Shown: one piece after another, positions 10,124 to 60,117 of the stretch
Layout of the letters: the number at the start of each line of letters is the position of its first letter
Position numbering within the stretch: position 1 is the stretch's first letter
Source of the DNA: Gordionus sp. m RMFG-2023
Taxonomy: Eukaryota > Nematomorpha > Gordioida > Chordodea > Parachordodidae
Length of the DNA stretch: 64,000 bases
Direction: 5' to 3'
Assembly (NCBI RefSeq): GCF_954871325.1
Contig: NC_088775.1
Coordinates: 23,289,561 to 23,353,560, forward strand
The notes under the pieces: model-generated
Told to the model about the DNA's origin: nothing
The model's input: the letters and a program-made list of their open reading frames with translations, nothing else
Database searches by the model: none
Made by a program: the position numbers and the translations under genes

Positions 10124-13100
10124 TTTATACCCAATCTATCTGGCTTCGATCGTATCCTTTTGTGATATCGATCTTGACTTGTATCTCTTCCTCAATCTCT
10201 TTAGTTTCATCGTTATTTTTTATTGCATCCTCTTTGTTTACTATCTCTTCGGTTTTCTCTACTTCAGTTCTCTCTTCTAAATCGTATTCTTCAATCAATA
10301 TATTTTCGGTTCTTTTCCTTAATTGGTCAATATGACGTATAATCGTATTACCCGCTATACTTACTTCATAACGTTGTGATCCGAGTATGCCTTTAATAAT
10401 TGCTTCTTCCCATTTTATTTCTTTATTATTGTAAAGGCGCGACCAAACTTTTTCATTTATATGGAATTTTTGATTGTGGTATTCTAACTTCTCCTTTTTG
10501 TTCCCCCGTTCGAATATTTGATCTAACAATCCTCTGGGTTTAAATTTTAGTAGTATTTCACCAGGACTTTGTTCAGTTTCTGTCCCTGGTTTATTTCTGT
10601 AATTGTAGAGAGAAATAGCTAGACTGGTTTCTAAATCCCTCTCGTTTCTTTTATTCATACCCTGTTTAAAAGTTCGAACTAAACGTTCAGCCATGCCGTT
10701 TGTCTGAGAATAGTAAGGACTTCCGTGCACTAATTGAATCCCGTTTTTTCACAAAAATCATTGAAATCTTTGCTGCTGAATTGGGGTCCGTTATCAGAAA
10801 CGATTATCTTGGGAAATTCGAATCTTGCAAAAATATTTCTTAATATTTTTATCTTGCTTTCGGTTGTAGTGCTAGTCATGGGAACTATTTCTGGCCAGCG
10901 ACTGCTAGCATCTATCACTACCAACCATAATGATTTTGAAATGGTTCAGCATAATCAATATGTACTCGGTGCCATGTTTTGGTGGTTTTGGCCAATTTTA
11001 AATTGCTGTCTTTTGAGGCATATCGTGTTGTTCCTGACATTCTCTACATTTTTCTACCCATGTTTCTATATCTTGGTTTAAATTAGGCCACCACGCGTAT
11101 TACCATGCTCCCATCTTCATTTTTACCATTCCGATATGTCCTTGATGTATCATGTCCAACACATTGTTTCAGTATTGTTGTGGTATTATCATTTTAGTTC
11201 TCCATAATAAACAACCTGTTCCCTCCTTAGGCTATGATCCTTTAAACATGCATCATAGCTTATTGGCCATCAATCTATTGTATATCTGTATACTTTAGAA
11301 AGTATATCATCTCGCATTGTTTCTCTTTCAATTTCACTTGCATTTAAAGGTGTTTCTCCCACCTGTATTTGATATAGCGTTTCTTCTTTTGAAATTGGAG
11401 TTCCCTTTATAGGTAATCTAGATAGCATGTCAGCATTTGCTATTTGTTTACTACTTTTGACTTCTATTTCATATTGGTAACCTTCTAATAATAAAGCCCA
11501 TCTTTGTATTCTGGCAGTAGATGTTATTGGTATATCTTTTCTTGGATGAAATAAACTCATTGATGGCTTGTGGTCTGTTTGTAATGTGAACTTTTTTCCA
11601 TATATAAATTCTTTGAATTTTGTAAAACCAATTATGATGGCAAGAGCTTCTCTTTCTATTTGGCTATAATTTTTTCAGCTGCATTTAGCGTTCTTAAGGC
11701 GAATGAAATCGGTCTCTCCTTACCCCCTTCTATATGTGATATTACTGCCCCAATTCTTATGGCTGATGCATCTGTTGCTAATATAATGGGTAATTTTGGA
11801 TCATAATGTTGTAATATTGGAGTACTACTTATTTCTTGCTTTATTTTTTTACACGCGTCTTTGCATTCATTAGTCCATCTCCAAACAACTGCTTTTTCTA
11901 ATAATTTGTATAATTGTTTGGCTTTGCCTGCTAAATTTGAAATAAATTATGTTACTGACCCTCGAAATGATTGTAATTGTTTCAAATTTGTTGGTTCTGG
12001 TGATTTTTTTTACTGCCTCAGTATTTCATCGGTAGTTGTTATTCCGTTTTTTGAAATTTAGTGTCCTAAGTATTCGACATTTTGTTTGAAAAATTTACAT
12101 TTTTCTATTTTTAGCTTGATTCCATTTTCGTCTAGACATTTTCGTACCTTTTTTAAATTTGTTTCGTGTTTCTCTCTATTTTTTCCGGTTACTATAATAT
12201 CATCTAAATAACAAGCTACTCCTTCAAAACCTTTTAATAAATTCTCGATGGCTCGTTGAAATATTGCTGGAGAAGACGATATACCAAAAGGTACTTATAT
12301 ATTTAAATAATCTTCTGTGCGTATTGATTACAAGATATTTTTGAGACTCTTCCCCATTTTAATTTGAAAATTGGCATCTGAGAGATCCAATATTGAAAAT
12401 TCCTCTCCTTTTCCCAAATTGGCTAATAAATCTTGGATTCTTGGTATTGGATATGATCAATTAATATTTTGATTTATAGTTCTTTTAAAATCCCCGTAAA
12501 TTCTTAATGTTTTCTCTTTCTTTCGAACAATTACTATGGGTGATGCATAAAGTAAATGATTAATTTTCTCTATTACTCCTATTTTTTGCAATCTATCTAA
12601 ATCTTCTTCAACTTTATCTTTTAACGCGTATGGTACGGGACGTGATTTACAGAAAATTGGTTTCTCATTTTTCATATATATTTGTGCCTTAAAATCTTTC
12701 AAGTAGCCTAATTCTTTGGTAAATAAATGAGGAAATTCATTTTGTATATTAATATTATTTATTTGTTTGGTCCTTTCAGGTAATTCAGTCCTTTCAGGTA
12801 ATTCAGTCCTTTCAGGTAATTCAGTCATTTTGGGAAATTTAGTTATCCAATTTCTTCCAATAAGATTTTTGGTATATCCATTTGTAATTATGAGAGGTAG
12901 TTCTAATGTTCGCCCTTTATATTGTACTTTTACTACAGTCTGATCTAATAGTTGTATATTGATTCCTGTATAGCTTTTAAGTTTTAGCAAGCAATTTGTT
13001 AATTCAGGACGATTAAGTTTATTTTCCCAATCTATTTCATTAATTATGCTTACACCAGCTCCAGTATCTAATTCCATTTTGATATCGCTGTTGTTTATTT

Positions 13101-13905
13101 TGACATCCACCAAAATTCTGGATTATATTCGTTTGTTTTATTATTAATAAAATTCACAATTTCTTTTCTACAGATTGGAGCAATGTGCCCAATTTTGTTG
13201 TATAACAAGTAAAGACAAATTTCCCTTCTATGGTTTCCGCCACTGGTGTGGCATGAATTTGGTTTTTTGTAGCTAGCATTATAATTATTATATGATTTTG
13301 ATTGTTTATCATTATCATTATTAACTTTTTTAATTTTATTTATATTATCATTATGTTCCTCTTCTATATGATCGATTTTAGTTTCATCATTTTGTATTAA
13401 TTTTGTATTTTTTATCGCTGTTTCTATTGCAGTAGCTATCTGTATAGCTTTATATATGTCTATATTGTCTTCGGATAATAATCTTTGTAAAAATTTTGGA
13501 TATTTAATTCCGAATATAAATTTATCTCTTAATGCAGTATTTAAATATTCCCCAAAATCACAAGTCGTTGCTAATTTTCGTAGATTTTATATATAGTTTA
13601 TTAGTTTTTCATCATTTTGTTGATTATATTGATAAAATTTATATCTCTCTACTATTATATTAGGTTTGGGATGAAAATGTTTGATTAAAATATTATGTAT
13701 TTCTAATACCTCCTTGTTTCCCGGACTATCAGGTTCACATAAATTTACCAGTATTTCGTAAGTATCACACTCTATTGTTGTTAATAACAGAGATTTGTGA
13801 TGATGTTAAACTTGGTTGTGTGTTTAAAAATTCTTAAAATAAGTTGTACCAATCTTTGTAACACATGTTTGAATCCGTTAGACTTTTTATAGACTGCGCC
13901 ATTTT

Positions 13906-14487: not shown

Positions 14488-17400
14488 TGGTGCTCCGTTG
14501 GCAAAAAAAACTCGCCACCAGGTAAATTTTTTTTAGAAATTTTTCTTTTTAAAAAAAAAATATTTTCTCTTCGAAATGTGAATATGAATAATAAAAAAAT
14601 TATAAAACGAAACAAATAAATTCTATATAAAGAAGGAAAAAAAAGGTAAAAATCATTTTAAAGTTATTTCTATTATGTTTTCATTCAAACTCATTAATAT
14701 TCCCTGGGAAATTTCTATTTATGATATACTGTTTGAATTAACTTATAATTGCGATGTACATTATTCAAGGATACTTGGTAGTGATGACGTCATGTTTGAA
14801 TTTGTGAGCCTTAAAGAAATGGTCAACTATTTTGAACTAATTATGGGAAGTTTTAAGTATATAATGACTCGGAGTTTATTCAACTCCATTGTATTTTTGT
14901 AAAAATATGAAGTGTTATAATTTCTAAATATGTATACGAAATATTAATAAAATATGGATCAGAATTAATATATAAAATTCCTAAATTGGTTGGACCACTT
15001 ACTGAGATTTACTTAGACAGAATATTAAGTTATTTTTTGATTAGCACATTACCGGACTCTATTAAAATAAATACTTTGCTTAATAATTTATCAGACGAAG
15101 TCTTTGACAATATTAAATCAATTTGCTCCGATACCGACATATTAGATCTTAAAATAGTGTCTAAAAAGTTAACTTACATTTTACCTGTACAAGATAAAAA
15201 CATTTTAATAAACAAATTTAACTTATCATAGCAGAACTCGAGTGAGAATTTCATGCAATGGTACATAAGAGTATCGAAACTGCATAAAAAATGTAATTTT
15301 TCGGACGACAGTAGATTAAAAGAAAAATTACGTGCATCTACCTAAAATGACAAAATAAAATATAAATTTTGTAAAAATATTAAGTTAACCTTAAATGAAA
15401 TGGTAGAGCTAGGAATTAAATTAGATAGTATCAATGATAAATCAGATGTTGATAATATAAGTTATATGAATAACGATAAAAAGTCTGATAAATATGCAAA
15501 CTTTAACAAAGAAATAGAAATGACAATAATAATTATTTTAGACCTGATAATAATTTTAGAAATAATTTTAGAAATAATTATGATAATAGAAATAGAGATA
15601 GGAATTACAACAATAATTTTAGATACAATGGTAGGAATTACGTAATAATAATTCGAGATACCACGATAATTATAACAACTATAACTACAATAACTATCTA
15701 CAACAATAACAATCAATCTAATTATGGTAGAAATAATACAGGGCATGATAATAATCAAAGAAAACAGATCCAATACGGTGACGGAAATCGTAACAATTAC
15801 CAATCTTATTACAACAATTCAAATAATTATAGAGGTAGTTACAATAATCAGAGAAAGCAAATACAATATAACAACAACTCAAATAATTATAGAGGTAGCG
15901 ACAACAATAATAGAAAGCAAATACAATACAACAATGATTACAATATGAATATTGAAGAAATTATTGAAGAGAAAGTCGACTTTACAAAGAACAAAGATGA
16001 TAACGATTTCAATGTTAACAACTTATCTGGTGACATGCTCAATGACAAAGATAATTCATTTATGACTACTTTAAAAGTGAATGATATTGTTACATGTATG
16101 CAAGTCGACACAGGCTCAAAACATGCGATTATACCTCATGGTCTGGCTAAAAAACTTGGTATTAGAGATGTTAAGAAATCCGAGTTACAACTTACCGCTT
16201 ATGGAAATTTAATCAAGATCATCGGCATCACTCAAGTTAAAGTGACTTATGAAGGTATCTCAAAGTATTTACAAGCGGTAGTCGTCGAATCAAGTAAAAA
16301 TGCCTTGTTGGGACGTACATGGATCAATGCTTTCAAAAATATTTTAAATAAATTTATAGCAAATGTTGACACTAATTACGAAGATGGAATAAAAAAATTG
16401 ATTAAAGAGTGTGAATCCAAATTGACTAATGGGCCAATCAACAAAACAAGTGTCAAGTTACATTTAAGAAGAGATGCCCAACCTAAAATTATACCGCCTA
16501 GACGTATTCCTTATTCAAAAATTGATCTTGTTAGCAATGAACTTAAAAAATGGATACATGATAAAGTCTACAAAGATGATGGGAGCATTAGGCTTTGTGC
16601 TGATTCTAAGGACACTGTAAACCCAGCTCTAGAAGATTTCAGATACCCTCTACCACGAATCAATGATCTAATAGCTAAACTTTCAGAAGGAAAGAAATTT
16701 ACGAAGATTGACTTTAAAAATGCTTTCTTACAGATCCCAATTGATAAAAGTTGCAGAAATATTTTAACCATATCTACGCACAAGGGATATTACCAATTTA
16801 CTAGACTTCCTTTTGGGCTTAAGACCTCATCTGCAATTTTTCAACAGATCATGGATCAAATCTTCGGTGACATGGATGACGTCATATTTTATATTGATGA
16901 TTTACTTATAACTGGAAAAAACGATGAAGCCCACTTTAACAACATAAAATAATTGTTTGATAGAATATCATCGTTTGGGCTAATACCTAACTTCAATAAA
17001 AGTGTGTTCTTTAAAAACAAAGTGAGGTTCCTGGGTCATGATATTGACGCCAAAGGGATTCATGCTAATCATGACAAAATTGAAGCAATAATTAATATGC
17101 CAGAACCAAAATCAGCTGCTGAATTATCAACATTTCTGGGAATGGCTGGCTACTATAGAAAATTTTTTAACAATTTTGCAGAAATAGCTCCTCTGTATAA
17201 GATTGTCAACAAAGAAAAATGGGCTTGGAACCTAGAACACTTTAAAAGTTTTAATGATATTAAGAAGTTGATTAGTCTTCCACCTGCTTTGACATATTTT
17301 AACCCTGAATTACCTATAGGGATAGTCACTGACGCATCGAAATGTAGCTTAGGAGCTGTATTATTTCATACTGAAAAAGATGGTAAAGAAAAACCTATAG

Positions 17401-19381
17401 CTTTCGCGTCAAGAACTTTATTAAAATTCGAAATGAACTATACCAATATTGAGCGTGAGGCTCTCGCTATTATGTTCGCTATAAGGAGGTTCCAGGAATA
17501 CTTAAACGGCACGAAATTTAAAATTATTACTGACCATAAACCTCTAGTTCACATCTTTACCAAGGGTTTTAAGGATAATAGCACTATGTCCTTGAGACTC
17601 CAGAAGTGGAATATAACATTAGGAGGATATGATTTTAATATAAAGTATAAAGCCGGTAAATATAATGTTGTTCATGATTGTCTCTCGAGATTACCACAAG
17701 AATGTCATGATGAAGCTGTTGAAAATATCACTATATTAAATGAATAGGGGATTTACCTATTAATTTTAATCAAATTCGTGACGAAACTTTGAAAGATATT
17801 GAATTAAACCAAGTCATAAATGATATTAAGAACAACAGGCCTATAATGAATAATATTTATAAAAACATTGATTTAGAATTGAGTATTATTAAGGATTGTC
17901 TTTACAAAACAACAGAATCATAATTCCGTCTTCTATGAGAAAAAATATACTACAGTCATTACATGAAGGTCACTTGGGAGCAGGAAAAATCAAATTATTA
18001 GCCAAAGATTACATGTGGTGGCCTGGTATAAACAATGACATAGTTATGGAAGTGAAAAGTTGTGACGATTGTAACATATATCATGATAATCCTATAAAGA
18101 TACAAAAACCATGGGTTTCGGCAACCAAACCGTTTGAAAGGATACACATAGATTATGCGGGTCCGTTTTTCACAAAAAATTGGTTGATAATAGTCGATGC
18201 CTACAGCAAATTTCCAATTATTATTCCTGTTAAAAATATTACTACTGATGTTACTTTAAAAGAAATTTTTAAAACTATTTCGCTATATGAAATACTTGAA
18301 ACTATAGTTACTGATAAAGGCACTAACTTTACGAGTAACGATTTGAAAAATTTGCAACAATTATGGTATAAAACATGTGCTCACATCTGCTTATCACCAG
18401 CAATCCAATGGCCAGGGAGAACACATGGTGAGAACGTTCAAAACACATATGAAAAGGAATATTAAAATTGACCTAGATATCGCACTTGGCAAATTTTTAT
18501 TTAATTACAGAAACGCGTAATGATACTACAGGAGTTACACCCTCTCAGAGAATGTTTAATCGAGATATTAGAATTAAATGGGACTTATTAAAACCGTTGG
18601 AGGAGAAGGAGAATAAAATAAACGTTACTTTACCACGAAATAGAACCTTTAACGTAGGAGATTTTGTTTGATACAAAGTACAAGGTGATGATAAATGGTG
18701 CAAAGGTAGATCACACTTAAAGATAGTGACATGATGTTCCAAATTAAGACAGAGAAAGGTATTATGAGGAGACATTTAGATCAAATAAGAATTAGAAACT
18801 GTTTTAACACACTTATTAATTATGACTCTAAGGATTCTTTTAAAGTGGGAAGTGTGGACAAAAATATAAAAATTACTGATAATAACGATATAACACATAT
18901 TTCTAGACCTGTGCGAATTAAACAAAAACCTGTTTATTTAAAAGACTACATAACTTAAAATATAAAATCAATATTAAAATGCGTATAGTAAATTAAATAT
19001 TAAAACGCTTACACTAAAACGCAAAAAAAATCAAAACGCTGAAAATATTATATAACAATCTTATTGATTTATCATTCTCCTTTTATTCTTATATCCAATT
19101 TGATGAATTATTATTTCTCATTATTCGTAACTTACTGATGATAATAACAACAACTAAGCATTACAAAGTCACGATTTATAAGGACAACTTACGATTTATA
19201 AGGACAACTTACGATAAGGAAATCAGCTTGCGATTTAAACAAACCAACGTGCAAAATCGATTTAAACAAACCAACGATTGGGACAAGCCAACGATATGAT
19301 GACTTGTGAAACAACTTGATGAACAAACTAACTACGATAACATTATTAAAATTATGTGAAGACTTTTTAAAAGAAGGAGAA

Positions 19382-21088: not shown

Positions 21089-23115
21089 CAGAGGTTCGAA
21101 CCGAACCGCAAAACAGGAATGAACCGTTATGATTTTCTGAACCTTAACCTTAACCGAACCGTTATGAAGAAAATATTAAAAGAGCGAACCGAACCGTTAT
21201 AAATATTTTGAACCGGTTTAAACCGGTTCAAAACGGTTTTAAAAATAATTAATTTTAAATTATTAACCTAAATTTAAAATTTTAATTTTCCTGAAGTATA
21301 TCAAAAACTTAATTCGTTAAAATTAGATATAGCAACTAGATATGATAGGTCCATATTGGGGATCAATATTCAATTTATAAATAACGGAAAAATAAAATTA
21401 AGGACTCTATGCATGAAAGTGATTAAAGAACGACACACATCAGAATATCTTAAAAAAATTATTCTAGATGTTCTAAAAGAATATGAAATAAAAATTGAGC
21501 AGATTTACACAATAACCACCGATAATGCAGCAAATATGATTAAGTTAATTAAGCTATTAATACTACACGATGAAGAAGATGATGAAGATGATGACCTTAA
21601 CGATTATTTAATTAATGATGATTTAAATAATAATGATATAGATAATGACGATTTAAATAATAATGATATAATTCATGATGAAAATAAATAACTTTTTAAT
21701 ATTGAAAATATTAATCTTGCACCAAATGCCAGATCCATATTAATAGGTATTAGATGTGCTTCACATACATTTCAATTAGCAATTAATGATTGTATTAAAA
21801 ATTCAAATGAAATTGTCATTATAAATAAAGCAAGAAACATCTGCAAAAAAATAAGAAATCAGACAACAATGGCTATTCTCTCAAATTAAATTTGATCTAT
21901 TTAATGTTGGAGAGATTACTATAGTTAAAAAGCTTTTGCCAAGAAATATCGCTTCAAAGCGATCGCGAAAAATGTTTATCAGAGAATGAATGGAAAATAA
22001 TTAGTGTCATATTAAAAGCTTTAAATCCAGCTTATGTTTTGACAAAATATTTACAAAGTGAACAATTGACAATGGGCGATTTTTATGCTGCGTAGATCAA
22101 ATGTCTCATGCAAACGAGTAAAGTAGACACTCCATTTGCCAGACTTTTAGTTTCTACGATGAAAGCACGAGAAATAAATTTCAAAAATGAAGTTTTTTTC
22201 TCTGCTATTTATCTCGACCCTAGATATAATGTATTTTTAACTTTTGAAGAAAGAGAGATCGCCAGAAAACATCTTTGTAAAACTTGGAACTTGATACAAA
22301 ATCTAAATAATCAGAATATTAAATTCTAAATACTATGCCTACGTGTTCGTATTCGAAGGATAATTTAGATGATGATTTTGAAGATTTATTAAAGTCGCAT
22401 GAAAGTCTTAATAAGAATAATTCTCAGGGCATCGAAAATTATAATAAATGTAGAGAAATAGAATATATAATTCGGTCATTTGATAATATAGAGAGATTAG
22501 AAAAAGATACTAATCTTTTGAATTATTGGGAAAATGTAAAGAATAGTATGCTAGAACTTTATAAGTTAGCTATAACTGTGCTAGCAGTTCCAGCTACGCA
22601 GGTCTCCGTAGAAAGAGCATTTTCATGCCTTAAGTTTATACTTTCTGCCCAGAGAACTAAATTAAATCCTGAAATATTAGAAAATATTTTAGTTATCAGT
22701 TCAAATTCTCTTTTTAAACCTAAATAGTATAGTATACATATTATTTTATTCATTATTGTATTTACGCATGTTTGTTTTTATCTTATTTATTTATAAAATA
22801 AAAAAAAACTAATTTGTCTAATTTATATTTCCTAAATTTAATAAAAATATCTATTAGATTATCATGGATAAATTAAATAAGAAATTATAAACTAAAAAGA
22901 TTTTTCTCTAAAATTAATATATACATGGTTAATGATTAATTTTTTTTTAAATTAAATTTATAAAAACCGGAACAAACCGAAAAGAACCGTTATAAATTAT
23001 AAACCGAACCGATATGATTTTTTTTTAAAAACCGAAATGGAACAAAACCTTTATAAAATTTTAAACTAAAAACCGGAACGAACCGAACCGTTAAACTAAA
23101 TAGTTCGAAACCCTG
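21089..23115 (+). mobile_element. hAT transposon with complete ends, decayed transposase
   Basis: Left end CAGAGGTTCGAACCGAACC, right end GTTCGAAACCCTG. The perfect 8-bp duplication ATTCTATT lies at 21081-21088 and 23116-23123. Both subterminal zones carry repeated GAACCG(TTAT) words. A plus-strand transposase lies inside in several pieces. At 2027 bp it is short for an autonomous hAT; the BED-finger end of the protein is missing. Confidence 0.93.
21356..22727 (+). pseudogene. hAT transposase, decayed
   Basis: Segments at 21356-21691, 22108-22329 and 22335-22727 belong to one transposase. The first carries the TTDNAANMIK motif around the second catalytic Asp of hAT proteins, then an Asp/Asn-rich tract of about 45 residues. 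The last carries the dimerisation domain (VPATQVSVERAFSCLKFIL then LNPEILENILV) and ends at a normal C-terminus. Frames differ between segments, stops occur near 21690 and 22095, and the N-terminal finger region is absent, so the gene is dead. Confidence 0.8.
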
Positions 23116-23819: not shown

Positions 23820-24600
23820 AATTAACTTATGATGAATTTTTTATAGATAGAATATTTTGGAATCAAATTGACAATATGCTTATTATTTAAACATGTTTTA
23901 TTGTTTCCACACCAAAAATTAGGCTTGGCATCCATTAAAGACCCATAAATTCGAGGTTTGTCTTCCATATGTTTTCCCTTCGACACATACATCTTTTGAA
24001 ATTTCTGAATACAGAGAAATTTTGGCCACAGATCCAGTAAGGGGGCATATTTGTAGCTGATCATTGCCAGAACTGGAGCAAGTCACTAACTCGTAACTAG
24101 TAGGAATTGGATCAGGATTAACCGATTCCATTGTACCACAATACATCATTCGGTAGAGAGGGCCATGTCGAAGATTTTTTATAACTATTTTTCGAATAAT
24201 AATCTGTGGTTATATCATTGCCTGTTTGGATATATGTATCTGTATTATACGTATCGTTAACATGTAAGTGATTTGGAGAAGAGTCATCATTTTTATCTTT
24301 CCAGCTAATTTAGTATTGAAAATAACTAAAGGATGGGTTGTAAAGCGGCATTATACCTAAAGTCTTAACCTTAAATCTGGCAGTGCAACCTTGAAAGACC
24401 GACACCTTGCTACCTATCATACCATATGTAGAGTCCATTTTACAAGGAAAGATTGATAATTGTTTTTCGACTAGTAAATCAACTACAGGTATACCGAAAT
24501 CGCATTCCTTGTGAGTGAAATCATAGCTAGCTCAAATGATCGAAATTTCACCATGCTGGGCCAAGTTGCCTAGGTCATAATATTTGTAAAAATTAATATT
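23820..24600 (-). pseudogene. decayed DUF3011-like relative of the upstream gene
   Basis: Minus-strand translation gives two DUF3011-like domains. The first (about 24540-24370) reads KECDFGIPVV...QLSIFPC...STYG...VFQGCTARFKV; an in-frame TGA lies where the first conserved Cys should be. One frame then continues, through a further stop, into a linker (to about 24140). The second domain (about 24095-23905) shows VTCSSSGNDQLQICP, then CVEGKTYG and LWVFNGCQA, with TAA where the residue before the usual Phe is expected. Frames change once between them. Exon-3-like architecture suggests a partial duplicate of the neighbouring gene. I read it as a host pseudogene. Confidence 0.7.
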
Positions 24601-25151: not shown

Positions 25152-25351
25152 TTATAATAAATGCGACAAAACAAAAATAGTCTTGCTTGAGCATCTTTTC
25201 ATGCATTCAATCTCAGATTTGAATTTGTTACCATTCCCATTATCACCGGTATAAATAAATTGTTGACACCTTTTAGTTGCTGGGTTGTAAAAATATCGGA
25301 TGTGAATTGAACTTCCGTTACCAGGGTCGGGAGGTAATATGCAGACACTTT
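25152..25351 (-). CDS. exon 8: four-cysteine Kunitz domain and C-terminus
   Basis: Acceptor CTAATATAAG, phase 1, stop TAA at 25154-25152. It encodes C-ILPPDPGN-G, then a 15-residue stretch with RYFYNPATKR, C, QQFIYTG-D-NGNGNKF, and C-MKR-C. The frame is exactly 8-15-7-12-3, but the second Cys is Gly and the fourth is Asp. These two normally pair with each other (C14-C38), so the loss removes one whole bridge and leaves no odd Cys. A short tail follows (SSKTIFVLSHLL). Confidence 0.8.
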
Positions 25352-28300
25352 CTTATATTAGGCATTTTAATGATATAATTTTATTACAAATATTATATAA
25401 TAGAGCATACACCAACTCTTTCGGGAGTTTATATTTATATTTAGCAAGAGATTGATATTTTATTGAGAGATTTGCAGAAGAAAAACGAGCTAGAGAAATA
25501 TTGTAAAATTAAAGCTTATAATTTTTATATTATATTAGTAAAGTACCTTATTAATATCAGTTAGAAAAGGCTAATAATATATAGTATATCAATCTATGAC
25601 GTAGTATTTTTCGTCTCTCTCTCACTTATTTTGTTAAAAAGATAAAATGTTCTTCATTGAAGTACTAATGGGTAAACTTGCCAAAATATATAATTTTTAT
25701 ATAATAGGAAAATAGTCTAAAATGTGTTTGAAATTATGCGAAGCATCTATAAAATATTTTGAGATATTATCAACCATATTTAACGTTTTATACCATAGTT
25801 TGTATAGCTAGTAATAAAAAATGGGATACTTTAATATCCTCACAATAAAAAACTGTCAAGTATTTAATTTTTTGTCTTCAAGATTTGAAATAGATTAGGA
25901 AGGATTCTGCGATAATAATGTCTGCGAATTTGATGTGCTGCTAGATTAATTAAAACCTTTTATTCATTTCAGTTATAAAAGGTATCACGTCAATTTGGCG
26001 CGGAAAATTCGGCACACGGCAATTCGGCGCGGCGACATTCAGCGCGTATCTATTACAGTTGCAATTTATTATATGTTACTTAGTATAAAAAAATAAGGAT
26101 GATTAAATAGAAATCATTTTGAATGTTGGTCCTATTAATTATTTCTTCATATTTATTTTTACAAAAATCTCAATTTTATTTACTAAATGTGAAATATCCA
26201 AAAAGATTAACAACCAAATATATACCTATTTCTTGGGTGACCAATTTACCACATAAGGTATGTTGACCAATGTTATGTAAGCCGAGATTTTGGGCATAGA
26301 AGAAAGAAAGAAAAAGAAAGGTTTGGACCTCTATCTCGAATCTTACATATTATTTTGGCTAGAATTTAAATCGACCGTTTTAAAAATAGACCCAGCCATG
26401 ATCCAAATAAAATCAAATTTAGACTGACTTATTTTTTAGATTTATTAAAAATCCTTAAATTCTATTAATCCTTTTTAAAAAAATATTATGCTTAGGCTAA
26501 TTTTTTTTATTATATAAATCAAAAATTAAATGTGTAATATCAAAAAAAATTAACAATCAATATTTATACCTATTTCTTTGGTTGACCAATTTGCCACATA
26601 AGATATGTTGATTTAGCCAATGTTATGTAAGCCGAGATTTTGGGCATATTACTTATCAGGGGGGTATATTATTTTTTGAAACTTTTATAATTTTATTTAT
26701 TTTTTTTATTGTCTAGGCATGAAAAGGGGATTTAAGATTTAACATTATAGTACTTATCAGGGGGGTATTTTAGGACTATTTTTAAAAACTGTTGATTAAG
26801 ATTGTAGCCAAAATAATATATAAGATTAGAGATAGAGGTCAAATCTTTCTTTTTCTTTCTTCCTTCTATGCGCAAAATCTCCAGGCTTACATAATATTGG
26901 CTACTAATCATCATACCTTATAATGTGGTAAATTGGTCCATTAAAGAAATAGGTATTGTTAATTTTTCTCGATATTACACATTTAGTAAATAAAATTGAG
27001 TTTTTATAAAAATAAATATGAAGAAATAAATAATAATACCAACATTCAAAATGACTTCTATTTAATCATCCTTATATTTTTATACTAAGTAATTTATAAT
27101 AAATTGCAACTGTAATAGATACGCGCCGAATTGACGCTTCGCCGAATTGTCGCTGCGCCGAATTGACGTGGAACCGTTATAAAAATATCCAAAAGGAAGA
27201 TAGAGATTTATTTTATAGTAGCCATGCTGCGAGTCTAAGTAAACAAATATTAAATTCATAGAGCTCTGCCTTTGACTCAACAATGACATATAATTTATGA
27301 AATTCGTCATCTACATTTGCCCTAATTTCCTTAAGAATCCTTTTCAGCCATCTCATCGTCTCAATCAAATAAATCGATTTCATTTTTGAAATATTTCACT
27401 TTAGTTTTGCAGTAAAATTAATGATAAATTGTTTAGTGGGATTATAATCAATAATAATTCATAGAACACATCAGTTATTTATTCCTGCTGTGAATGTGGT
27501 AAATAATGAGGTAGAAACAGAAATAATATTTTTGAAAAATATTTTAACCGACATCTGAATTATTTGACTTTAGAGGGGAGGAAGTGGAGGGGGGGGGAGG
27601 ATTTTCCCCCTGCCCCAACCGAAACCTACGTGCCTGTCACATCTCATATAGTGTGAGAAGAAATATGTTATTAATCGTCATATAAAAATATTCTATTAAA
27701 TTAAGGAGAATTAGATATGTCAAAAATCCTTAATAAATGTAAAATTTCAATAAAGAAAGATGATTAGTTTATATTAATTTATATTATTATAAAAGAGTTA
27801 TTTGAAAATAGAAACTTTTTTGTTAAATTTTAATATATATATATAAATATAATTAAATTATAAAATATTTAAATTTATTTACCTAAAACATCACAAAGTG
27901 AGGCACATTCTTCGAGCGTTGAAAATCTATTGGCATTCCCAGAGCAACCAGAATATATAAAACCTTCGCATCTTGAAGTTATAGGACTAAAAAAATATTT
28001 GGTCTCATAGTGGGAACAATTACCAATTTCCACGGGCAAAAGGCATGGAAAGTAAGAGTCTTTATATTTTTAAATTTATTATAATCTAAACCGGTCATCA
28101 TTTCATTTCATTTTTTCCTTCCTTCCTTCCTTCCTTCCTTCCTTCCTTCCTTCCTTCCTTCCTTCCTTCCTTCCTTCCTTCCTTCCTTCCTTCCTTCCTT
28201 CCTTACTTCTTTCCTATCTTCCTCTAACCATAACCTGTTCGACAAGTCCTTTCACAGTGATCATTGTATAAAAAATTATTGGCATTCCCATTGCAACCGG

Positions 28301-31300
28301 TATAGTAAAACCCTAAACATTTTCCTTTAGAACTATCGAAAAAATAACGAGTTAAATTTTGAATACAGTTCCCTATTGATAATGGCAGATTACAAATGTA
28401 TGGCAGCTTGGCTTAGATATAAAAAGAAATCCAAATATAAATTATTGCATATTTTAATTAGCTTTTGAAAAATTAAAAATATTGAATTATTTAATGCTTA
28501 TATCCAGTAGCGTCACTGGGGGAAAGGGGGGGGGGTCGAGCCTTCTGAAAATTTGAAGAGCCCCTCTCAAAATTTTGAATTTTTTTATACCACTAAAAAA
28601 AGAATAATGATAGCTAAAATAAGATAATTATAGATTATGTTATTTAAAAAAGGGTAATTTTCAATAATGTTAGCTAAAAAAAGAAGGTAATTTTAGATTA
28701 TATTTGCTATAAAAAAAGAAGATAATTTTGGATATTGTTAACTTAAAAAAAGTATTTAAAATTTTGAGCTCCCTGAGATTGTAACGGATAGTGACGCCCA
28801 TGCTTATACCGATTCAATCTTAACCTAACATCTGACCCTATTTTAAAAAATATACATCTAAATTGGCGAATCCTTTTGTTTTTAAAATAAATATATTTAA
28901 AATGCAAAACAAATGAAAGCACAAAAATATTTTTGATAAAACCCCAAAGATGATCTATACCAGTTTCTGTTTCTGAATAGAAATTTTTGTCAGGCTCGGC
29001 GTACAAAGTGCGTTTTATATTGTAAGTAGAATGTGGGAACGTGTTAAAAATTTCGAAATAAGTAACCAAAAATCCAGCTTTACAACCATCATCGACCCAA
29101 ACGTAATTATATGCATGCCCGTATGATTCTCCTACAGAATAATATTATAAGATAAATACAAATCTTTTTTGTAATTATAGTTTAGTTTCAAGTTCTATTG
29201 TTACAATACGAGTCAAATCTAATCCGAACAAATTTGGGTCGATTTTTCAACAGTTTAATCGAGGAAATTTTTGATCGAATCGTACTCAGACCTATACTTA
29301 AAATATAATTTTGGATCGGATTCATATCTTCAAAAATAAACTCGGATTGGATTATTCAAAAATAAATTTTTATAAGACAAGTCGGACGTGAAATAATAGG
29401 TCAATGCAGGATTCTAGTTCAGAGATAAGAAATTTAAAAATAATGGGAGAAAATTAATTGTAATTATAGTTATAGAATTCAATGTATGCTTAGGTTAGTT
29501 AAAATAAATATAAGACTTTATAGAGATTATTTGAATGCTTGTTATATTACCGTCGGAAAATTATCATATTGACTAGTAAGTTCACAATAGTATTTTTAAA
29601 AGTTACTTCTAAAAATTAACTATTAAAGTTAATAGCTATATTATTGAAAAGGTAAATAATTGTTTATAATTACATTATTTTAAAAACAATTTCTTTATAG
29701 AATATTTATTTAACCAATCATTTTTAATATAATTTATTTATTATTCAAATAATTTTGCCATTTAAAAATTTTAATCAAAGTTATTTTAAATGAAAATAAA
29801 CTTAAAATAGGAAATAATTACACTGAAAAATATATATCATAATATAATATTTATATTCATAAAAGATATGTCTGTTTTTTTTAGAAATAAGTTTTTCTAA
29901 ACTAAACAACCGTTCGACAGGAGCGCTTGATGTAAGTGAGACATATTTAATAAGTAGTTATTTAAAATTTCGGAAATCATTATATAAAGATAATAAATGC
30001 AATTGTATTGAATATATTAGTTAGCAAAAAATTAACTAGAAAATATGTTACTTTTGCCCATAAAATGTAACTAGTTATATTTGCCAAACATAACTAGTTG
30101 CCGTTATATTGCAAGATAACTCAAAAATGTAATAAGTTACAGTATATTTTAACAAAATTTGTAAGCACATTAGAAAAATTTATTTAAGGCTTGGGTTCGA
30201 GTGGTAAGTGAAAATAGTTTTTAAAATTTCAAATATATTTTCCTAATGAATATCCTGGACAATAAACTAATATTTGCTAATTTAATTTTATATTTGTTAT
30301 TTATTTTCTGCTAACTTTCGTGTATATATTTAATAGAAGAACTTACCAAATACACATTTATTTTTCGAAAATTCTTCCAACAAAGCAATGTTAGTTATAT
30401 TCCCCGGAGCCTGACATTGATTTCGTCCTTTAAGACTTTGGCAGGCTAACTATAATATATTAAAATTATTATTTAATAAAAAATATCAGATATTTCACTA
30501 ATGAAGATAAGGTGAAATTATCACCAAATTCTTCCATGGGCTCTAAAAATAATCACTATAAAGAAATTTATTGTTTCAAGTAGTTAAAAGCTAGGTAGTT
30601 GCTGTAGTATTAGTATGCTAAATGTTTTAATATACTTTTATCATAAGGGTTAATTAAGTTTATTTAAATATTGTGATAAAAAAATAACTTCTGCCGTTTC
30701 TTCGCGATTATCAGTCCCTACAGGACTTGATGTCTGGTTATAATCTGGCAGGAAAACAGTGAAAATAGCTTGACACCCATTTGACACCCATATATTTTGA
30801 TCCCTATATCCAAACGTCTTTTGATATTGGCATTTATTAGAATCCGCCTCTATTTTACTATCAATTCTAGTATCATTATTATAATTGAGTTCCTTATAGT
30901 TAGGTTCAAAATCGTATGCCATTTGCCGTTGTAATTGAATTCCATGAATGGGCTTACCTATATTACATTCTCTATATTCCGACCAGCCACTGCCACAGAA
31001 TGTCACATATTCCCTAAGCAAGACGGGCTCTTTAGTTCTAAAATGTTCATTTCCTTCGTTATTTACGCCTAGAATAGTGTGAAATTCATTTAATGTGAAA
31101 TGGTTATTGACTTCATTTAAGTATTTATGAGGCCATAGTTGAGTGTAATTGGATGTATTTGGTGGCGATGTAGTTATACTACTGTTAATGGAGTTTACCA
31201 ATGAATATTGTTCTGTGCTATTAAGCACACTCCATCGACCGTATACCCCCGCAATAGCCGTGAATGTTCTATGCGGAATGTATCTAGAAGTGTAAATGTT

Positions 31301-33342
31301 AGGCTTATGTATATCTCGATAGATTCCCTTACCTTTTATTGTCGTTCTGCTTTTGATTGTTGTACTTGAAATCTCTTGTAATTTATAAATTTCAGATGAA
31401 AAAGTTGTATATTGAATATTATTTTGGTGATGTTGCCTTTCAAGTATACTACGCGGTCTATGATTTTCATTAATTAAATTGTCTCTTCCTTGATAATGAT
31501 ATTTACTATTCTGTGGTATATAACGAGTATACGGAGAATCAGAGGCCAAAAATCCTAATGAGCTCATGATTTTAATTCGAATCTGAAATATACCAGCGCA
31601 TCCTTTGTCCACCCAAATGTAGGAAGCGGATTTAATAGGCACAGGAAGGGCTTCAGGATTATGAACCTTTTTTATCAATGTCTCATAAATGACTTCGTCT
31701 TCAGGGTCAACACTTCTAATGTTAATACCATAGGTTTTGTTAAATTTGCAAGGAAATTTATTCTCATCTATTGATTTAAGTAGCTTAAACTTTTCCACAA
31801 CTATCATTTTAGAATTGCCAACGTTTTTATTCTTTTCATGATTTCTAAATCTGAAATCTCTTCCATAATTTTTATAGTAATGTCTATAAAGATTTGTGGC
31901 AAAACCATCGGAATCATATGGTTCCAAAACTTTGAAAGTTGAATTTTCCACTTTTGGGGAAACCCCAAAATTAACACCCAATGGACATTCCCAGTATGTT
32001 TTGGTAGCCGGTGGACTAGCGCAAAACATAAAATCATCAAAGAGTCTTCTTTCCGGATATGTTCCTAAAAGCTTTCCAGCCAAAAGAGAATGTAGATAGT
32101 TGTATTGTTCTTCTTCCTGTTTAAATTTGACCTCGAATGTGGCCTTACACCCTTTGTTGACCCATATTCTGTTATTGACATATCCGTAAGAGCGTCTTTT
32201 GCGAGAACATTCAGCGAAGGATAGTTGTTTAAGCAAGCGAATAGAGGAAAGATTTCGAAAAAATTCGCATTCATTTAGAGCGCCGGCACTTTCACAAGTA
32301 GCACTCTTGTATTCGTTTGAAAAAGTTTGTGATATAGGAATCCTAGGACTTGTAAGCAATGATTGGATTGAATCAGCATTTTCTGAAAATTTATTAATAA
32401 AACCGAAAGGAGATTCATGGTTGGGTGTTTGATAGTACACATCGAAAACAGCGGAACAGTCTTTATTAACCCATACTATACTTCGGTCTTGAATTGAGCC
32501 ATAAGTTTGATTGACTTTGCATTCATTCCGATTCATTTGTTTTCTTTACCATATATATGTATATACATATGTGTGTGTTGTGAATAATAAGTAATTAAAT
32601 CACTGGCATAATAGACCAAAATCAAAGGAGGGCACAGGAATGCAAACATTTTTTTACTATTAAAGAGAATCTAAAAATGAAATTTTTCTTATCCAAATTA
32701 AAATATAGTGAATCAGTAAAAAATTTAAAGAATCCAATTTATTTAAATAAACACTATAAGTAAATAAACTTTCTTTAAAAATATTGTCTAAAGATATAAG
32801 TATTTTATCAATAGGAATGTTATTCAAATAAACTAAGATCTTTGCCCCCCCCCTAAGCCCATATAGCTTTCTACTGAATAAAATATTGTAAAAAGTATTA
32901 TGAGATTTATTTTATTCTTTAATAAACAAAACTTTTTTACAAACCTAAAATATATAAATTTAATAGGACCTCCAACCAAACATTCTGAATATTTTCCGAA
33001 GTAACTTTTGCATTGGATTTGTTTGTGTCGTAAGGTGTTGTATATTTTTACCTTTGATTGAGTGTAAACTAATTTAAAATATAGTTATAAGAATAAATAA
33101 ATTTTAGTTTTTGTTAAATATTATCAATTATTTAATACAAGAAAAAATATAAACGAGTGGTCTCTATTTGGTCTTTTTTTAAATAATATTTTCACATTTA
33201 GGAGTCGCTACCTGTATAATTATACTTCAGTTGTAATTAAACATTTGTTAAATATCGAATCATTTATAATATATAAATATTTACCAAAGTAAATGTTCAA
33301 TAGTAAGCTGATAAGGATCCAGATCATTTCATTTGCATTCAT
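25152..33342 (-). CDS. secreted protein: five DUF3011-like domains plus three Kunitz domains (8-exon model)
   Basis: Eight minus-strand exons can be joined with GT-AG introns: 33342-33285, 33068-32945, 32543-30722, 30449-30347, 29131-28961, 28411-28235, 28059-27883 and 25351-25152. Their lengths add to 2832 bases, exactly 943 codons plus a stop, with every junction in phase. The product starts with a hydrophobic signal peptide (residues 1-23), then DUF3011-like domains at about 39-98, 144-199, 230-385 (expanded by inserts), 570-665 and 670-730, then Kunitz domains in about 760-818, 819-877 and 878-943. The DUF3011-like pattern is C-x-S, a second Cys, IxLL-QLS, C, YGY, IWV-x-x-GC-x-A-x-F. The role is unknown; an extracellular protein with possible protease-inhibitor or binding modules is an inference. 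Exon 3 also reads on to a stop at 30650, so a 691-residue form or two separate genes are alternatives. Confidence 0.75.
25981..27175. mobile_element. foldback element with arms of about 430 bp (Mutator-like) in intron 7
   Basis: Left end GGTATCACGTCAAT and right end (reversed) GGTTCCACGTCAAT. A perfect 9-bp duplication GTTATAAAA lies at 25972-25980 and 27176-27184. The inverted arms run about 25981-26410 and 26745-27175 and are closely alike throughout. The outer part of the right arm has three near-copies of CAATTCGGCG. The middle holds a third, partial copy of the arm (about 26520-26660) in the same orientation as the left arm. Nine-base duplications with long inverted ends are typical of Mutator-like elements. 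No transposase is present. Confidence 0.8.
27213..27383 (-). CDS. unrecognised small open frame in intron 7
   Basis: A 56-codon frame from ATG to TAA with a charged, helix-like composition (LKRILKEIRANVDDEF). It lies between the foldback element and exon 7. I do not recognise it. It could be an unspliced host exon, a relic, or chance; no good donor site is visible. Confidence 0.2.
   Translation of the reverse strand: MKSIYLIETMRWLKRILKEIRANVDDEFHKLYVIVESKAELYEFNICLLRLAAWLL
27883..28059 (-). CDS. exon 7: Kunitz domain 2
   Basis: Also 177 bases and phase 1-1 (acceptor AATATAAAG, donor GTAAAT). It encodes CLLPVEIGNC, YFFSPITSRC, FIYSGCSGNANRF and CASLC with the same 8-15-7-12-3 spacing as exon 6. 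P1 is Ser. Equal length, phase and close sequence mark exons 6 and 7 as a tandem exon duplication. Confidence 0.9.
28115..28204 (+). repeat. (CCTT)n microsatellite
   Basis: More than twenty uninterrupted CCTT units in the short intron between the two tandem Kunitz exons. Confidence 0.95.
28235..28411 (-). CDS. exon 6: Kunitz domain 1
   Basis: A 177-base phase 1-1 exon (acceptor ATATCTAAG, donor GTTATG). The six Cys have the exact Kunitz spacing C-8-C-15-C-7-C-12-C-3-C: CNLPLSIGNC, then RYFFDSSKGKC, FYYTGCNGNANNF, C-x3-C. The P1 position after the second Cys is Ile, so trypsin-type inhibition is not expected; the target, if any, is unknown. Confidence 0.9.
28503..28800. mobile_element. 298-bp non-autonomous hAT-like element in intron 5
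   Basis: Left end TCCAGTAGCGTCACTGGGGG followed by a G-run; right end TAGTGACGCCCA. A perfect 8-bp duplication TGCTTATA lies at 28495-28502 and 28801-28808. The middle contains several rough repeats of GATAATTNTAGATTATGTTA with A-runs. No coding capacity. Confidence 0.8.
28961..29131 (-). CDS. exon 5: second half of DUF3011-like domain 5
   Basis: Acceptor TTCTGTAG, donor GTATAG after GAAACTG. It encodes GESYGHAYNYVWVDDGCKAG and FLVTYFEIF, completing the domain with YG and WVDDGCKAGF, then a linker toward the first Kunitz exon. Phase 1 on both sides. Confidence 0.75.
30347..30449 (-). CDS. exon 4: first half of DUF3011-like domain 5
   Basis: Acceptor TATTATAG, donor GTAAGT after GTATTTG. It encodes ACQSLKGRNQCQAPGNIT and IALLEEFSKNKCVF, matching the C-x-S, C, IxLL, C half of the family. 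It enters in phase 0 and leaves in phase 1. The second half follows in exon 5. Confidence 0.75.
30650..32543 (-). CDS. exon 3: large exon with DUF3011-like domains 1 (end) to 4
   Basis: An uninterrupted frame of about 630 codons. Domain 2 is the clearest: TCESAGALNEC, IRLLKQLSFAEC, SYGYVNNRIWVNKGCKATFEV. Domain 3 keeps FMFCAS...WECPLG and IWVDKGCAGIFQI but carries a long insert. Domain 4 has TFCGSGWSEYRECNIG, a variable loop, then TFGYRDQNIWVSNGCQAIFTV. Between domains 3 and 4 is a Ser/Thr/Asn-rich linker with several N-x-S/T sites. The exon enters in phase 2 from acceptor GGTAAAG. It can either end at 30722 (CCT before GTAGGG, phase 0) or run to the stop at 30650-30652; AATAAA lies about 80 bases beyond that stop. 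Confidence 0.85.
32945..33068 (-). CDS. exon 2: first half of DUF3011-like domain 1
   Basis: Acceptor TTTTAAATTAG precedes the exon; donor GTTTGT follows TATTTTAG. It enters in phase 1 and leaves in phase 2. It encodes a basic spacer and then QCKSYFGKYSECLVGG and IKFIYF, the first half of a DUF3011-like domain that exon 3 completes (KQMNRNEC...TYGS...WVNKDC). Splitting at this point rebuilds the spacing seen in domain 2 (IRLLKQLSFAEC). A longer end at GTAAAA three bases on would break the phase. Confidence 0.6.
33285..33342 (-). CDS. exon 1: start codon and signal peptide
   Basis: ATG at 33342-33340 opens a peptide with a short polar start and a strongly hydrophobic stretch (MIWILISLLLNIYF), typical of a secretory signal. 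The exon ends in TTTG before GTAAATA, leaving one base for the next codon (phase 1). The next exon supplies TT to make Val and continues YTQS, a plausible cleavage region. No clear TATA box could be singled out in the AT-rich upstream DNA. Confidence 0.7.
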
Positions 33343-35179: not shown

Positions 35180-38100
35180 TATTCCTTGTTAATGGGTTAG
35201 ATGTATGCTTGGAAACAGAAGGACGAAGAAGGACGCAGGTTCAATCCTGGTAAAGAGCATAAAAACTTTCAAGTTTTTCTTCGATGACTGATGTGTAAAG
35301 ACATATGGTAAGATGTATTTCGTAGCTTAGAGATGACGCCCTGGTCACCGACAGACCTGGACAGCCGGGTGCTAAGGATACCTGTCCAATAAACAAAATG
35401 AAGGAAACAAATAGAAATATAAATATGAAAGCTAGGACGTTCCCTCTAAGCGACGCGTAGGGTGTAGACCTCCATCCTGTGAAAAGTAAAGTAAAGGTCA
35501 AAGCAAAGAAGACAAGATTAGCAAGTTTGAATATTGGGACGCTTAAAGGTAAGACGAGAGAATTGGTATCAATGTCAAGAGAAAAGCTGATATAGCGTGC
35601 ATACAAGAGACGAAATGGAAAGGTCAGAAGACTTTAATATTGGAGATGGGTATAAATTGTACAATAATGGAATTGTTAGCAATAGGAACGGTGTTGGTAT
35701 CATCCTCAGTCAAGATCTAACCTCCTCAGTAGTAGAAGTCAACAGCATCTCTGATAGACTAATGAAGATAAAACTCTGCATTGGTCAATCAATACTACAC
35801 ATCCTTTCAATATATGCTCCTCAAACGGGTTGTAAGGAAGAATAGAAAGATGACTTTAGAGCTATCCTTGATGAAGCTGTAATGGAAATCCCTAAGGTGA
35901 CCTAGTCATAATTGGTGGTGACTTAAATGCGCATGTGGTAGAAGCAAGAGATAGCTACAAAAGGCATCATGGTGGTTTTGGATATGGAGAAAGAAATGAT
36001 GAAGGAGAGCACGTACTGAAATTGCGCAAGCCTTCGACCTTGCCTTAACCAACACCTACTATAGGAAAAAAGATAGTCATTTAATAACATACGAAAGTGG
36101 TACAAGGAAAACACAGATAGATAACATGCTAATCTCTCACAGAAGATTAAAAGATGTAATAGACTGCAAAGTCATCCCAGGAGAAGATATCGCCGCACAA
36201 CACAAGCTACTAGTCATGGATTTACCCATCTCAAATAAATCCACTCAAAACAAGATAAAACTGGAACCATGTATCAAATGGGGCAAAAAACAATGACAGA
36301 TGCCTTTGCAATCAATGCAAATATTGAAACTATAGATTCCTCACAAGTCAGTGAAAAAATGTGGACAGACCTTTCATCCAGATTAATAGACACTGCCAAA
36401 TCGACACTAGGCTTGGCAAGGGGAGGCAACAAATCATACAAAGAACTATGGTGGTGGAATGAAGAGGTACAAACCACTATAAAGGAGAAAAAAGCCCTAT
36501 ATAAAATATGGTACAAATCCAAAAAACCCAGATGACAAGACTAATTACACAAAATCCAAGAGAATAGCTACAAAGGCTGTGGCTAGGGCCAAATCTATGG
36601 CATACGATGACATGTACGAAGATCTACATACTAAGGAAGGGCAAAATAAAATATACTGATTAGCCAAACAGCGAGAAAAGAACTCTAGGGATATAAACGT
36701 AGCTCTAAAAGTAATCAAAAATAAAGATGGGAAATTAATAATAAAGGAAAAATAAATAATGAATAGATGGAAAGAATATATTCAGGAGCTTCTCAGCTTT
36801 AATCCCCACATACTACATCTAGACGAACACTCTCCATGTCAAAACCTTGTACAACCTTTAACAGAACAAGAAATAATCACATGCCTCAAGCATATAAAAA
36901 ACAACAAAGCTAGGGGTCCAGACGATATTCCAATAGAAAGCCTTAAAGCACTAGGAGATGATGGAATACATCTCCTCGCAAATCTGTACAATAAAATACT
37001 TGGAAATGAAGAGGTTCCCCAAAAATGGAGGCAAAGCTATCTAGTTCCTATCTTCAAAAATAAAGGGGATCCACACAATTGTCAAAATTTCAGGGGCATA
37101 AAACTAATGTCACACTGTCTAAAACTATACGAAAAAATAATAGAAAAAATTAAGAGATATAATCGAATAGGAGAGACTCAGTATGGCTTTATGCCTGGAA
37201 GATCAACAACCGATGCTAATACGCAATTAGGCAAATGAGTGAAAAATACAGGGAAAAGAACAAAAAGCTACACATGGTCTTTCTCGATCTAGAAAAGGCC
37301 TTCGATAGAATCCCAAGAAAAACTAACTGGTGGGCGCTACGCCACAAAAAGGTTCCCGAAAAATATATAAGAATAATACAGGATATGTATATGGGCCATA
37401 CAACAATGGTCCATAGCACAACAGGTACTTCAGCGGGCTTCACAATAGCCGAAGGAATTTATCAAGGGTCGGCTCTCAGCCCACTTCTCTTCATTACAGT
37501 AATAGATGTATTAGGACAGTCTATACCTCAAAGAGTCCCGTGGAATATGATATTTGCAGATGATATTGTGATACTTGCCGAATCTAAGGATGAAATGAAA
37601 GAAAGGAGTGTATGGTAGAGTATTGATATAAATGAATGGCAGATATCGGCAATTGAAAGCTGCAAATATTTGGGCTCCACCATACAAACAAACGGCACAA
37701 TAGAAAAAGAGATAAAGAGTAAGATTAATCAAGGGTGGTTAAAGTCGAGATCTTTATCTGGAGTGCTATTTGACAAAAGAATCCCACACATATTAAAGGG
37801 AAAGATTTACAGTTCCATAGTACAACCAACTATTCTATATAGTTCGGAAACATGGCCAACCAAAGAATCAGACGAGAGAAGTCTACAAACTATGGAGATG
37901 AGAATGCTGAGGATGATTGCTGGGGTAACAAGAAAGGATAAAGTGCGCAGTAAAAGTATACTAAATAGTTTAAAGGTAGTGCCCATTAAGACTAAGTTAA
38001 AACAGACTTAGGTGGTATGGGCACACAATGAGAAGGCCTATGAACTACATAGGAAATAAGGTTGAGAGTTTGGAAGTGATGGGCAAACGTAAAAGAGGAA

Positions 38101-52384: not shown

Positions 52385-53260
52385 TAGCAGCATATATAGG
52401 TAAAGGTAAAAATATATATCGTAAACATATTAAGTTAAAATTTCAGTGAAGATGTACCATACAAAAGTGACAATTGTCATAATCGTTATTTTTGAACTTT
52501 TTTGAATTTTTTCAAAGCAAATAGGTAAAAATATATATTGTAAAGATGTTAAAATAAAATTTCAGTGAAGATGTACAATAGAAAGGTGACAATTGTCATA
52601 ATCGTTATTTTTGAACTTTTTTGAATTTTTTTAAAGTAAATAGGTAAAAATATATATTGTAAAGATATTAAAATAAAATTTCAGTGAAGATGTACCATAG
52701 AAAGGTGACAATTGTCATAATCGTTATTTTTGAACTTTTTTGAATTTTTTTAAAGTAAATAGGTAAAAATATATATTGTAAAGATGTTAAAATAAAATTT
52801 CAGTGAAGATGTACCATAGATAGGTGACAATTGTCATAATCGTTATTTGTGAACTTTTTTGAATTTTTTTAAAGTAAATAGGTAAAAATATATATTGTAA
52901 AGATGTTAAAATAAAATTTCAGTGAAGATGTACCATAGAAAGGTGACAATTGTCATAATCGTTATTTTTGGACTTTTTTGAATTTTTTTAAAGTAAATAG
53001 GTAAAAATATATATTGTAAAGATGTTAAAATAAAATTTCAGTGAAGATGTATCATAGAAAGGTGACAATTGTCATAATCGTTATTTTTAAACTTTTGTCA
53101 TAATCGTTATTTGTGAACTTTTTTGAATTTTTTTAAAGTAAATAGGTAAGAATATATATTGTATTGATGTTAAAATAAAACTTAAATGAATATGTACCAT
53201 AGAAGAATGATAATCATAATCGTTATTTAAAATATTTTCGAATTTTTAAATGTGCTAACG
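52385..53260. repeat. 119-bp tandem repeat array
   Basis: About seven units. The word ATAGGTAAAAATATATATTG recurs at 52521, 52640, 52759, 52878 and 52997, exactly 119 bp apart; the next unit starts 145 bp on because 26 bp (TCATAATCGTTATTTGTGAAC region) are duplicated. Middle units are almost identical while the outer ones are more diverged, as expected for unequal exchange. No coding sense. Confidence 0.92.
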
Positions 53261-59604: not shown

Positions 59605-60117
59605 TGTGTGACTAAAGGAGAGGCTATGAATTGAGTAAAAGAACTTATCAGTGAGAGAAATGTCAAATTATTTTGTACAATGAATGCAGATGTGATGGAG
59701 AGTAAGGAGAAATGATCTATAGAGAATAATGAGATTGTAAAAACAAGATTTTTCCATATGGAAGGAGATGGGCATAAGAATTTTAGGGAATAGTTGGTAT
59801 GTGATGTTGATTATTTGTTTTGTGAAATATAATGGTTAGGGAAAATAAAGGTTAAAAGACTGAGGAATATATATTTTTAAAGAAAAGAAATTATAGTTGG
59901 GTGTATTTTTAGGTATGAGTAAATTTAAAGATGTATAAAGGGATTTGAGTTTTCAAGTGTAAAAGAAAAATGTTAAAAAAGAATTGAGTAAAATTAAAGA
60001 TGTATAGGAAGATTTGAATTTTGGAGTGTTGAAGAAAAAAAAAAAATTTTTGAAAAAGTTTTAAAAAAGAGGAAAAAATTACAATAAAGAAGTGTTAAAA
60101 AGAAAATAATAATTTAT

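Follow-up and report, generated by a model that had tools for sequence, protein, structure and literature searches.

The DUF3011 members with measured activity in the published work that we found are sea-hare egg lectins (PMC5484111). AKL of Aplysia kurodai is presented in the available text of that report as the first DUF3011 member of known function, a carbohydrate-recognizing protein of three DUF3011 repeats, for which galacturonic acid at 0.013 mM inhibits hemagglutination, an activity independent of Ca2+, and animal relatives of AKL are named in Aplysia, Haliotis, Pinctada, and Lingula (PMC5484111). The family is classed among the lectins in two further papers (PMC13027682, PMC8306185), and a survey of six rotifers for DUF3011 lectins lists none in the parts accessible to us (PMC8878817). 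Here, we analyzed a stretch of 64,000 nucleotides (nt) from the hairworm Gordionus sp. m RMFG-2023 (Nematomorpha), referred to as the window, in which an original prediction made from the sequence alone had placed a minus-strand gene for a secreted animal protein combining five DUF3011-like with three Kunitz domains. That prediction treated DUF3011 as a mainly bacterial domain of unknown function, and on both points the published AKL work and its animal members say otherwise (PMC5484111).

We hold it moderately probable, as a whole explanation, that the window carries a copy, broken in its last exon, of a Nematomorpha gene for a secreted modular DUF3011-lectin/Kunitz protein. The DUF3011-Kunitz architecture itself is real and unusual, and databases already list it under the name uncharacterized protein.

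Results

The gene model places eight minus-strand exons between positions 33342 and 25187; their product looks secreted and contains three Kunitz domains and five of the DUF3011 type (PF11218). The minus strand from 33342 to 25152 was read and six frames were scanned, and the coding region of exons 1 to 8 continued without a stop or a frame shift across 2829 nt; the 631-codon open frame of exon 3 had a chance probability of ~5e-21 at the stop frequency of the window. The original prediction had relied on GT-AG exons adding up to exactly 943 codons with matching phases. Such a combination exists and its phases match, but 384 GT/AG combinations stayed open within the tested boundary sets and ten of these had 943 codons, and the exact codon sum is therefore weak evidence for the gene model. 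The final model was guided by alignment to the window of a database protein, P0121, which is the uncharacterized protein LOC135929428 isoform X2 of Gordionus sp. m RMFG-2023 (1171 amino acids [aa]; seven member sequences from one contig, which may be isoforms or copies). It replaced a 948-aa trial model, preferred at first, in which exons 3 to 6 had different borders. All seven joins among exons 1 to 8 are common to the window model and P0121, itself a database gene model, which bears out the eight predicted exons, and the 943-codon combination nearest to P0121 differed solely at the end of exon 3, placed at 30722 rather than 30689, 11 codons earlier. Across these exons, 907 of 943 residues are identical between the window and P0121. 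It is very improbable that the DUF3011 and Kunitz parts are separate genes joined by reader and annotation, as might be suggested by the 2.5-kb intron 7 with its palindromic insert, since P0121 joins both parts and the phases match on one strand.

The domain assignment rests on Pfam, because Pfam is independent of the window-derived and bacterial profiles described below. DUF3011 was reported in three stretches of the uninterrupted 631-aa frame (E=3.1e-19), and the joined exons of the 948-aa trial model gave E-values of 1.2e-30 for DUF3011 and 2.5e-51 for Kunitz (107 and 172 bits). The PF11218 gathering cutoff of 25 bits was exceeded by exon 3 (70.1 bits), the joined exons (107.3 bits), and P0121 (165.1 bits). 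The hidden Markov model search that the prediction had proposed was thus significant, and Pfam E-values on frames and joined exons support the five DUF3011 and three Kunitz domains of the predicted region; secretion is supported by an N terminus that, judged by eye, resembles a signal peptide. For comparison, we used 120 of the 1859 relatives of the bacterial DUF3011 protein P0001 (P0001-P0120). A profile of three window domains found 619 domains with E<1e-3, covering all 120 bacterial proteins listed, and a bacterial profile was made from 150 of 623 bacterial DUF3011 domains, themselves picked with the profile of the three window domains. Five of 2159 six-frame window segments (at least 18 aa) passed inclusion with the bacterial profile, all on the minus strand and within the gene or just downstream of it.

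Domains 1 to 5 keep all four cysteines, the serine of C-x-S, and the last phenylalanine of the bacterial pattern; the deviations are D for G before the last cysteine in domain 1 and G for A in domain 3. All seven window domains, including two from the downstream exon described below, carry tyrosine or phenylalanine where 149 of the 150 bacterial domains sampled have tryptophan. An AlphaFold2 model of domain 2 (32117-32314; 62 rows) has six strands, with a mean predicted local distance difference test score of 93.8 and a predicted template modeling score of 0.76, and its comparison with solved structures gave no confident match. No solved relative and no sugar-contact residues for DUF3011 were found. 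In a tree with the 150 bacterial domains, the seven hairworm domains formed one group with a support of 0.84 when domains 6 and 7 were taken from the window and 0.91 when the intact ones of P0121 were used, and domains 5 and 7 paired in the latter tree (support, 0.83). One hairworm group is expected if the domains multiplied within the animal gene, in line with the multiplication proposed in the original prediction; the tree samples the closest relatives of a single bacterial protein, has the hairworm domains as its only animal sequences, and offers little finer resolution over 60 columns.

The Kunitz domains scored 63.9, 69.6, and 68.7 bits, in order, against the PF00014 gathering cutoff of 21 bits. 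The six cysteines are present in Kunitz 1 and 2, while in Kunitz 3 of both the window copy and P0121 Cys14 and Cys38 are missing; judging from the absent disulfide, Kunitz 3 is probably no classical inhibitor. Trypsin inhibitors have lysine or arginine after Cys14 (P1). The residue following the Cys14 position is isoleucine in Kunitz 1 and serine in Kunitz 2 and 3 and, by the P1 rule, these domains would therefore not be trypsin inhibitors. A three-row Kunitz profile found no fourth Kunitz exon in the window.

P0121 leaves exon 8 after ...KRCS and resumes at 24569 with a ninth exon, giving an architecture of 5x DUF3011-3x Kunitz-2x DUF3011. Seven DUF3011 units were recognized in P0121 from the motif and from aligning its ends with the window; Pfam reports five DUF3011 stretches in P0121 and no module besides Kunitz and DUF3011. 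Five DUF3011 domains, which had been taken as the full complement, are thus two short of the relative, and the last two lie outside the predicted region and are interrupted in the window. Residues 949 to 1097 of P0121 match 24567-24121 and residues 1099 to 1171 match 24119-23901 in two frames, at 96% and 97%. In exon 9 of the window, stops interrupt the first frame at 24534 and 24312, the frame shifts near 24120, and a third stop falls inside domain 7 (second frame); domain 6 there also lacks a tryptophan retained by 149 of the 150 bacterial domains sampled. We also considered the downstream DUF3011 pieces (24531-23922) as the remnant of a separate gene and rejected this, since they match the last exon of P0121.

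At the end of exon 8, the window donor begins with GC, not GT. GC-AG introns exist, and the donor is therefore possibly usable. The last eleven codons of the original prediction, with the tail SKTIFVLSHLL-stop, are probably intron, judging from this alignment; its GT-AG exon set kept the seven joins but not the end at exon 8, beyond which P0121 continues. Because exon 9 is interrupted, any product of the window copy would end just after Kunitz 3, and the domain content is the same, with 954 or 955 residues, whether translation runs on through the exon 8 border or halts at the first exon 9 stop. The predicted 5+3 architecture thus holds as the domain content of a copy whose last exon is interrupted, whereas its relative is 5+3+2. 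Given the 3.8% protein difference and the broken exon, P0121 is not encoded by the window copy itself.

In exons 1 to 8, the window and P0121 differ at 3 of 450 domain-core positions but at 33 of 492 linker or loop positions (0.7% versus 6.7%; Fisher p=4.4e-7), with one residue of the 943 outside the named core and linker/loop pieces. The loops of domains 3 and 4 (30755-32029) likewise differ more between the copies than the DUF3011 cores do (8/115 versus 2/292), and in the exon 9 cores, with stops included in the count, 5 of 115 positions differ (p=0.011 versus exons 1 to 8). The low core divergence therefore argues that selection kept exons 1 to 8, on one or both branches, as the comparison uses the protein of the relative only and does not distinguish the branch under constraint. 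Exon 9, as read from its stops and frame shift, is decaying in the window copy, which would then be a recent duplicate, or an allele, of a gene with exons 1 to 8 under constraint. A plain pseudogene, that is, a recent LOC135929428 duplicate without a protein product whose 5+3 form was never used, is a serious possibility that we place somewhat below even odds: the three stops and frame shift of exon 9, the conserved tryptophan lost there, the GC at the exon 8 donor, and the mobile-element frames nearby all fit it, but exons 1 to 8 are open over 2829 nt and their cores differ about 10-fold less than linkers and loops, an objection softened in turn by the fact that the constraint could stem from the other branch or linger after a recent loss. 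It is more doubtful that the copy is a truncated working variant, 5x DUF3011-3x Kunitz, beside the longer 5-3-2 form; the identical domain content of both possible ends and the core constraint would agree with such a variant. The locus as read here, with its last exon broken, is laid out in Table 1.

Table 1. Exons and DUF3011 domains of the hairworm gene copy; exon borders are from the P0121 alignment
Feature	Position	Strand	Basis
Exon 1: start codon, then hydrophobic stretch resembling a signal peptide (MNANEMIWILISLLLNIYF)	33285..33342	-	Hydrophobicity judged by eye
Exon 2: remainder of the signal region plus the N-terminal half of DUF3011 domain 1	32945..33068	-	P0121 alignment
Exon 3: rest of DUF3011 domain 1 and domains 2, 3, 4	30689..32543	-	Pfam PF11218 E=3.1e-19; P0121 residues 61-684, 94.9%
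Exon 4: N-terminal half of DUF3011 domain 5	30347..30449	-	Alignment of P0121 residues 684-721
Exon 5: C-terminal half of DUF3011 domain 5 plus a linker	28961..29131	-	P0121 residues 718-774, 96.5%; joined domain 53.2 bits
Exon 6: Kunitz domain 1, phase 1-1	28235..28411	-	Pfam PF00014 E=1.6e-17; 59 residues identical to P0121
Exon 7: Kunitz domain 2, phase 1-1	27883..28059	-	Pfam E=2.5e-19; 98.3% to P0121
Exon 8: Kunitz domain 3, GC donor at end	25187..25351	-	Pfam E=4.9e-19; P0121 departs after KRCS
Exon 9, broken in window copy: DUF3011 domains 6 and 7	23901..24569	-	P0121 alignment in two frames
DUF3011 domain 1, split by intron 2	32438..33015	-	41.5 bits joined, bacterial profile; first half alone fails (E 4.8)
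DUF3011 domain 2	32129..32302	-	53.3 bits, bacterial profile
DUF3011 domain 3, two inserted loops of ~59 and ~31 residues	31580..32029	-	20.0 bits whole domain, bacterial profile; lowest of set
DUF3011 domain 4, one inserted loop of ~25 residues	30755..31006	-	48.5 bits, bacterial profile

Two of the introns hold repeats. The palindromic insert of intron 7 (26037..27131, no strand assigned) lies outside the protein-coding sequence and has outer arms of 131 nt that are 93% complementary, plus further inner arms; it looks like a foldback or miniature inverted-repeat transposable element (MITE)-type mobile element. A (TTCC)n microsatellite occupies 28115-28223 in intron 6, between the first and second Kunitz exons. 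Elsewhere in the window, polyprotein pieces of long terminal repeat (LTR) retrotransposons were found at 12460-13122 (minus strand; protease) and 15507-18462 (plus strand; protease, reverse transcriptase, and integrase), and an integrase core of an LTR retrotransposon, below the Pfam cutoff, was found at 48347-48931 (minus strand). Downstream of the gene is a hAT-type transposase fragment with a dimerization domain (22323-22724, plus strand; E=1.5e-14). Reverse transcriptase frames are present at 36756-37235 (plus strand), below the Pfam cutoff with 22.7 of 29.6 bits, and at 57742-58800 (minus strand), where the match is clear (78.7 bits). Tandem arrays span 52404-53096 (119-bp unit, 5.8 copies) and 60117-60718 (202-bp unit, 3.0 copies).

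Discussion

A gene that looks complete by its open frames and phases can still prove to be a copy whose last exon is broken. As for the protein, each DUF3011 domain would be a small lectin domain like those of sea-hare AKL, with six strands and probably with disulfide bonds, and a row of five to seven could give high-avidity binding to glycans of acidic or galactose-like type. Such an array might anchor the protein to a surface rich in glycans (egg-string jelly, a cuticle coat, or a microbial surface, for example), while the Kunitz modules would block non-trypsin-like serine proteases through their exposed isoleucine and serine residues or act as stable spacers. Exons of phase 1-1 are the usual mark of shuffled modules. 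A wider scenario, which we offer as speculative and rather unlikely in its entirety, is that a molting phylum built an adhesive lectin from a domain common to bacteria and sea-hare lectins, gained Kunitz exons via shuffling, and used the product as a glycan glue and protease shield of egg strings or surface coats, with a recent duplicate naturally truncated to 5+3. The arrival of DUF3011 in hairworms may have been independent of that in molluscs. If the lectin reading is true, a hairworm protein with seven DUF3011 domains around a Kunitz block extends this lectin family to a molting phylum and is a testable candidate for an egg-string, surface, or defense role.

Among database proteins, P0121 is the nearest to the window copy and shares its exon joins and domains, but only P0121 has the last two DUF3011 domains intact. 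A protein search with the DUF3011-plus-Kunitz end gave 18 matches, of which P0121 was the only carrier of DUF3011 according to Pfam lists and the profile; the predicted uncharacterized extracellular architecture thus corresponds to a protein named only "uncharacterized protein." A search with exon 3 alone had P0001 as its sole match among 3805 candidates, and its length limit excluded P0121; as this search could not reach P0121, the lack of other animal relatives says little.

The bacterial tandem DUF3011 proteins resemble the hairworm protein in being strings of the same domain, with the pattern C-x-S...C...C...WV..GC.A.F, but the Pfam domains of the 120 listed include no Kunitz domain, and tryptophan stands where the hairworm has tyrosine or phenylalanine. 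Among 80 of 565 confirmed bacterial loci (L001-L080), there are 3 to 9 domains per locus, often in Lysobacter and related genera and also in Acidobacteriota, Thermoanaerobaculia, and Gloeomargarita. Papilin-like and nematode multi-Kunitz proteins, in turn, share the Kunitz modules, but none of the 17 matches other than P0121 has DUF3011. Papilins, such as P0136, combine a thrombospondin/ADAMTS-type cassette with Kunitz domains, and the Pfam content of P0121 includes no such cassette. We consider it unlikely that the DUF3011 domains are structural parts of an extracellular matrix, not sugar binding, and that the protein is a papilin-like matrix component. Four of the 18 C-terminal-part matches are named papilin or papilin-like, most others being nematode multi-Kunitz proteins, and the long linkers and 14 possible N-glycosylation sites would suit a matrix protein; those matches, however, hit the Kunitz part, none but P0121 has DUF3011, and Pfam shows no further module in P0121.

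The lectin reading finds its closest counterparts in the sea-hare egg lectins AKL and ADEL, which are likewise secreted tandem DUF3011 repeats in an animal. AKL was compared through its published peptides and description. The peptides read ...SFGYQK, so that some have phenylalanine at the WGY position (PMC5484111), a place taken by YG or FG in the window domains and by WG in 149 of the 150 bacterial domains sampled. YG is also found in some bacterial domains, however, so the AKL-like aromatic change is a weak hint. The NCBIfam NF035930 (lectin_2) cutoff of 100 bits was not reached by exon 3 (43.1 bits), and the bacterial P0001 also scored below it (72 bits). AKL differs in having three repeats in 236 or 237 aa with its signal and, in the available text of its description, no mention of Kunitz domains, and its activity is measured, whereas that of the hairworm protein is inferred (PMC5484111). 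Tandem DUF3011 domains behind a signal-peptide-like start, as judged by eye, give this animal protein an AKL-type architecture and, at the level of the domain family, the best reading would be a multivalent lectin that is secreted and carries Kunitz modules.

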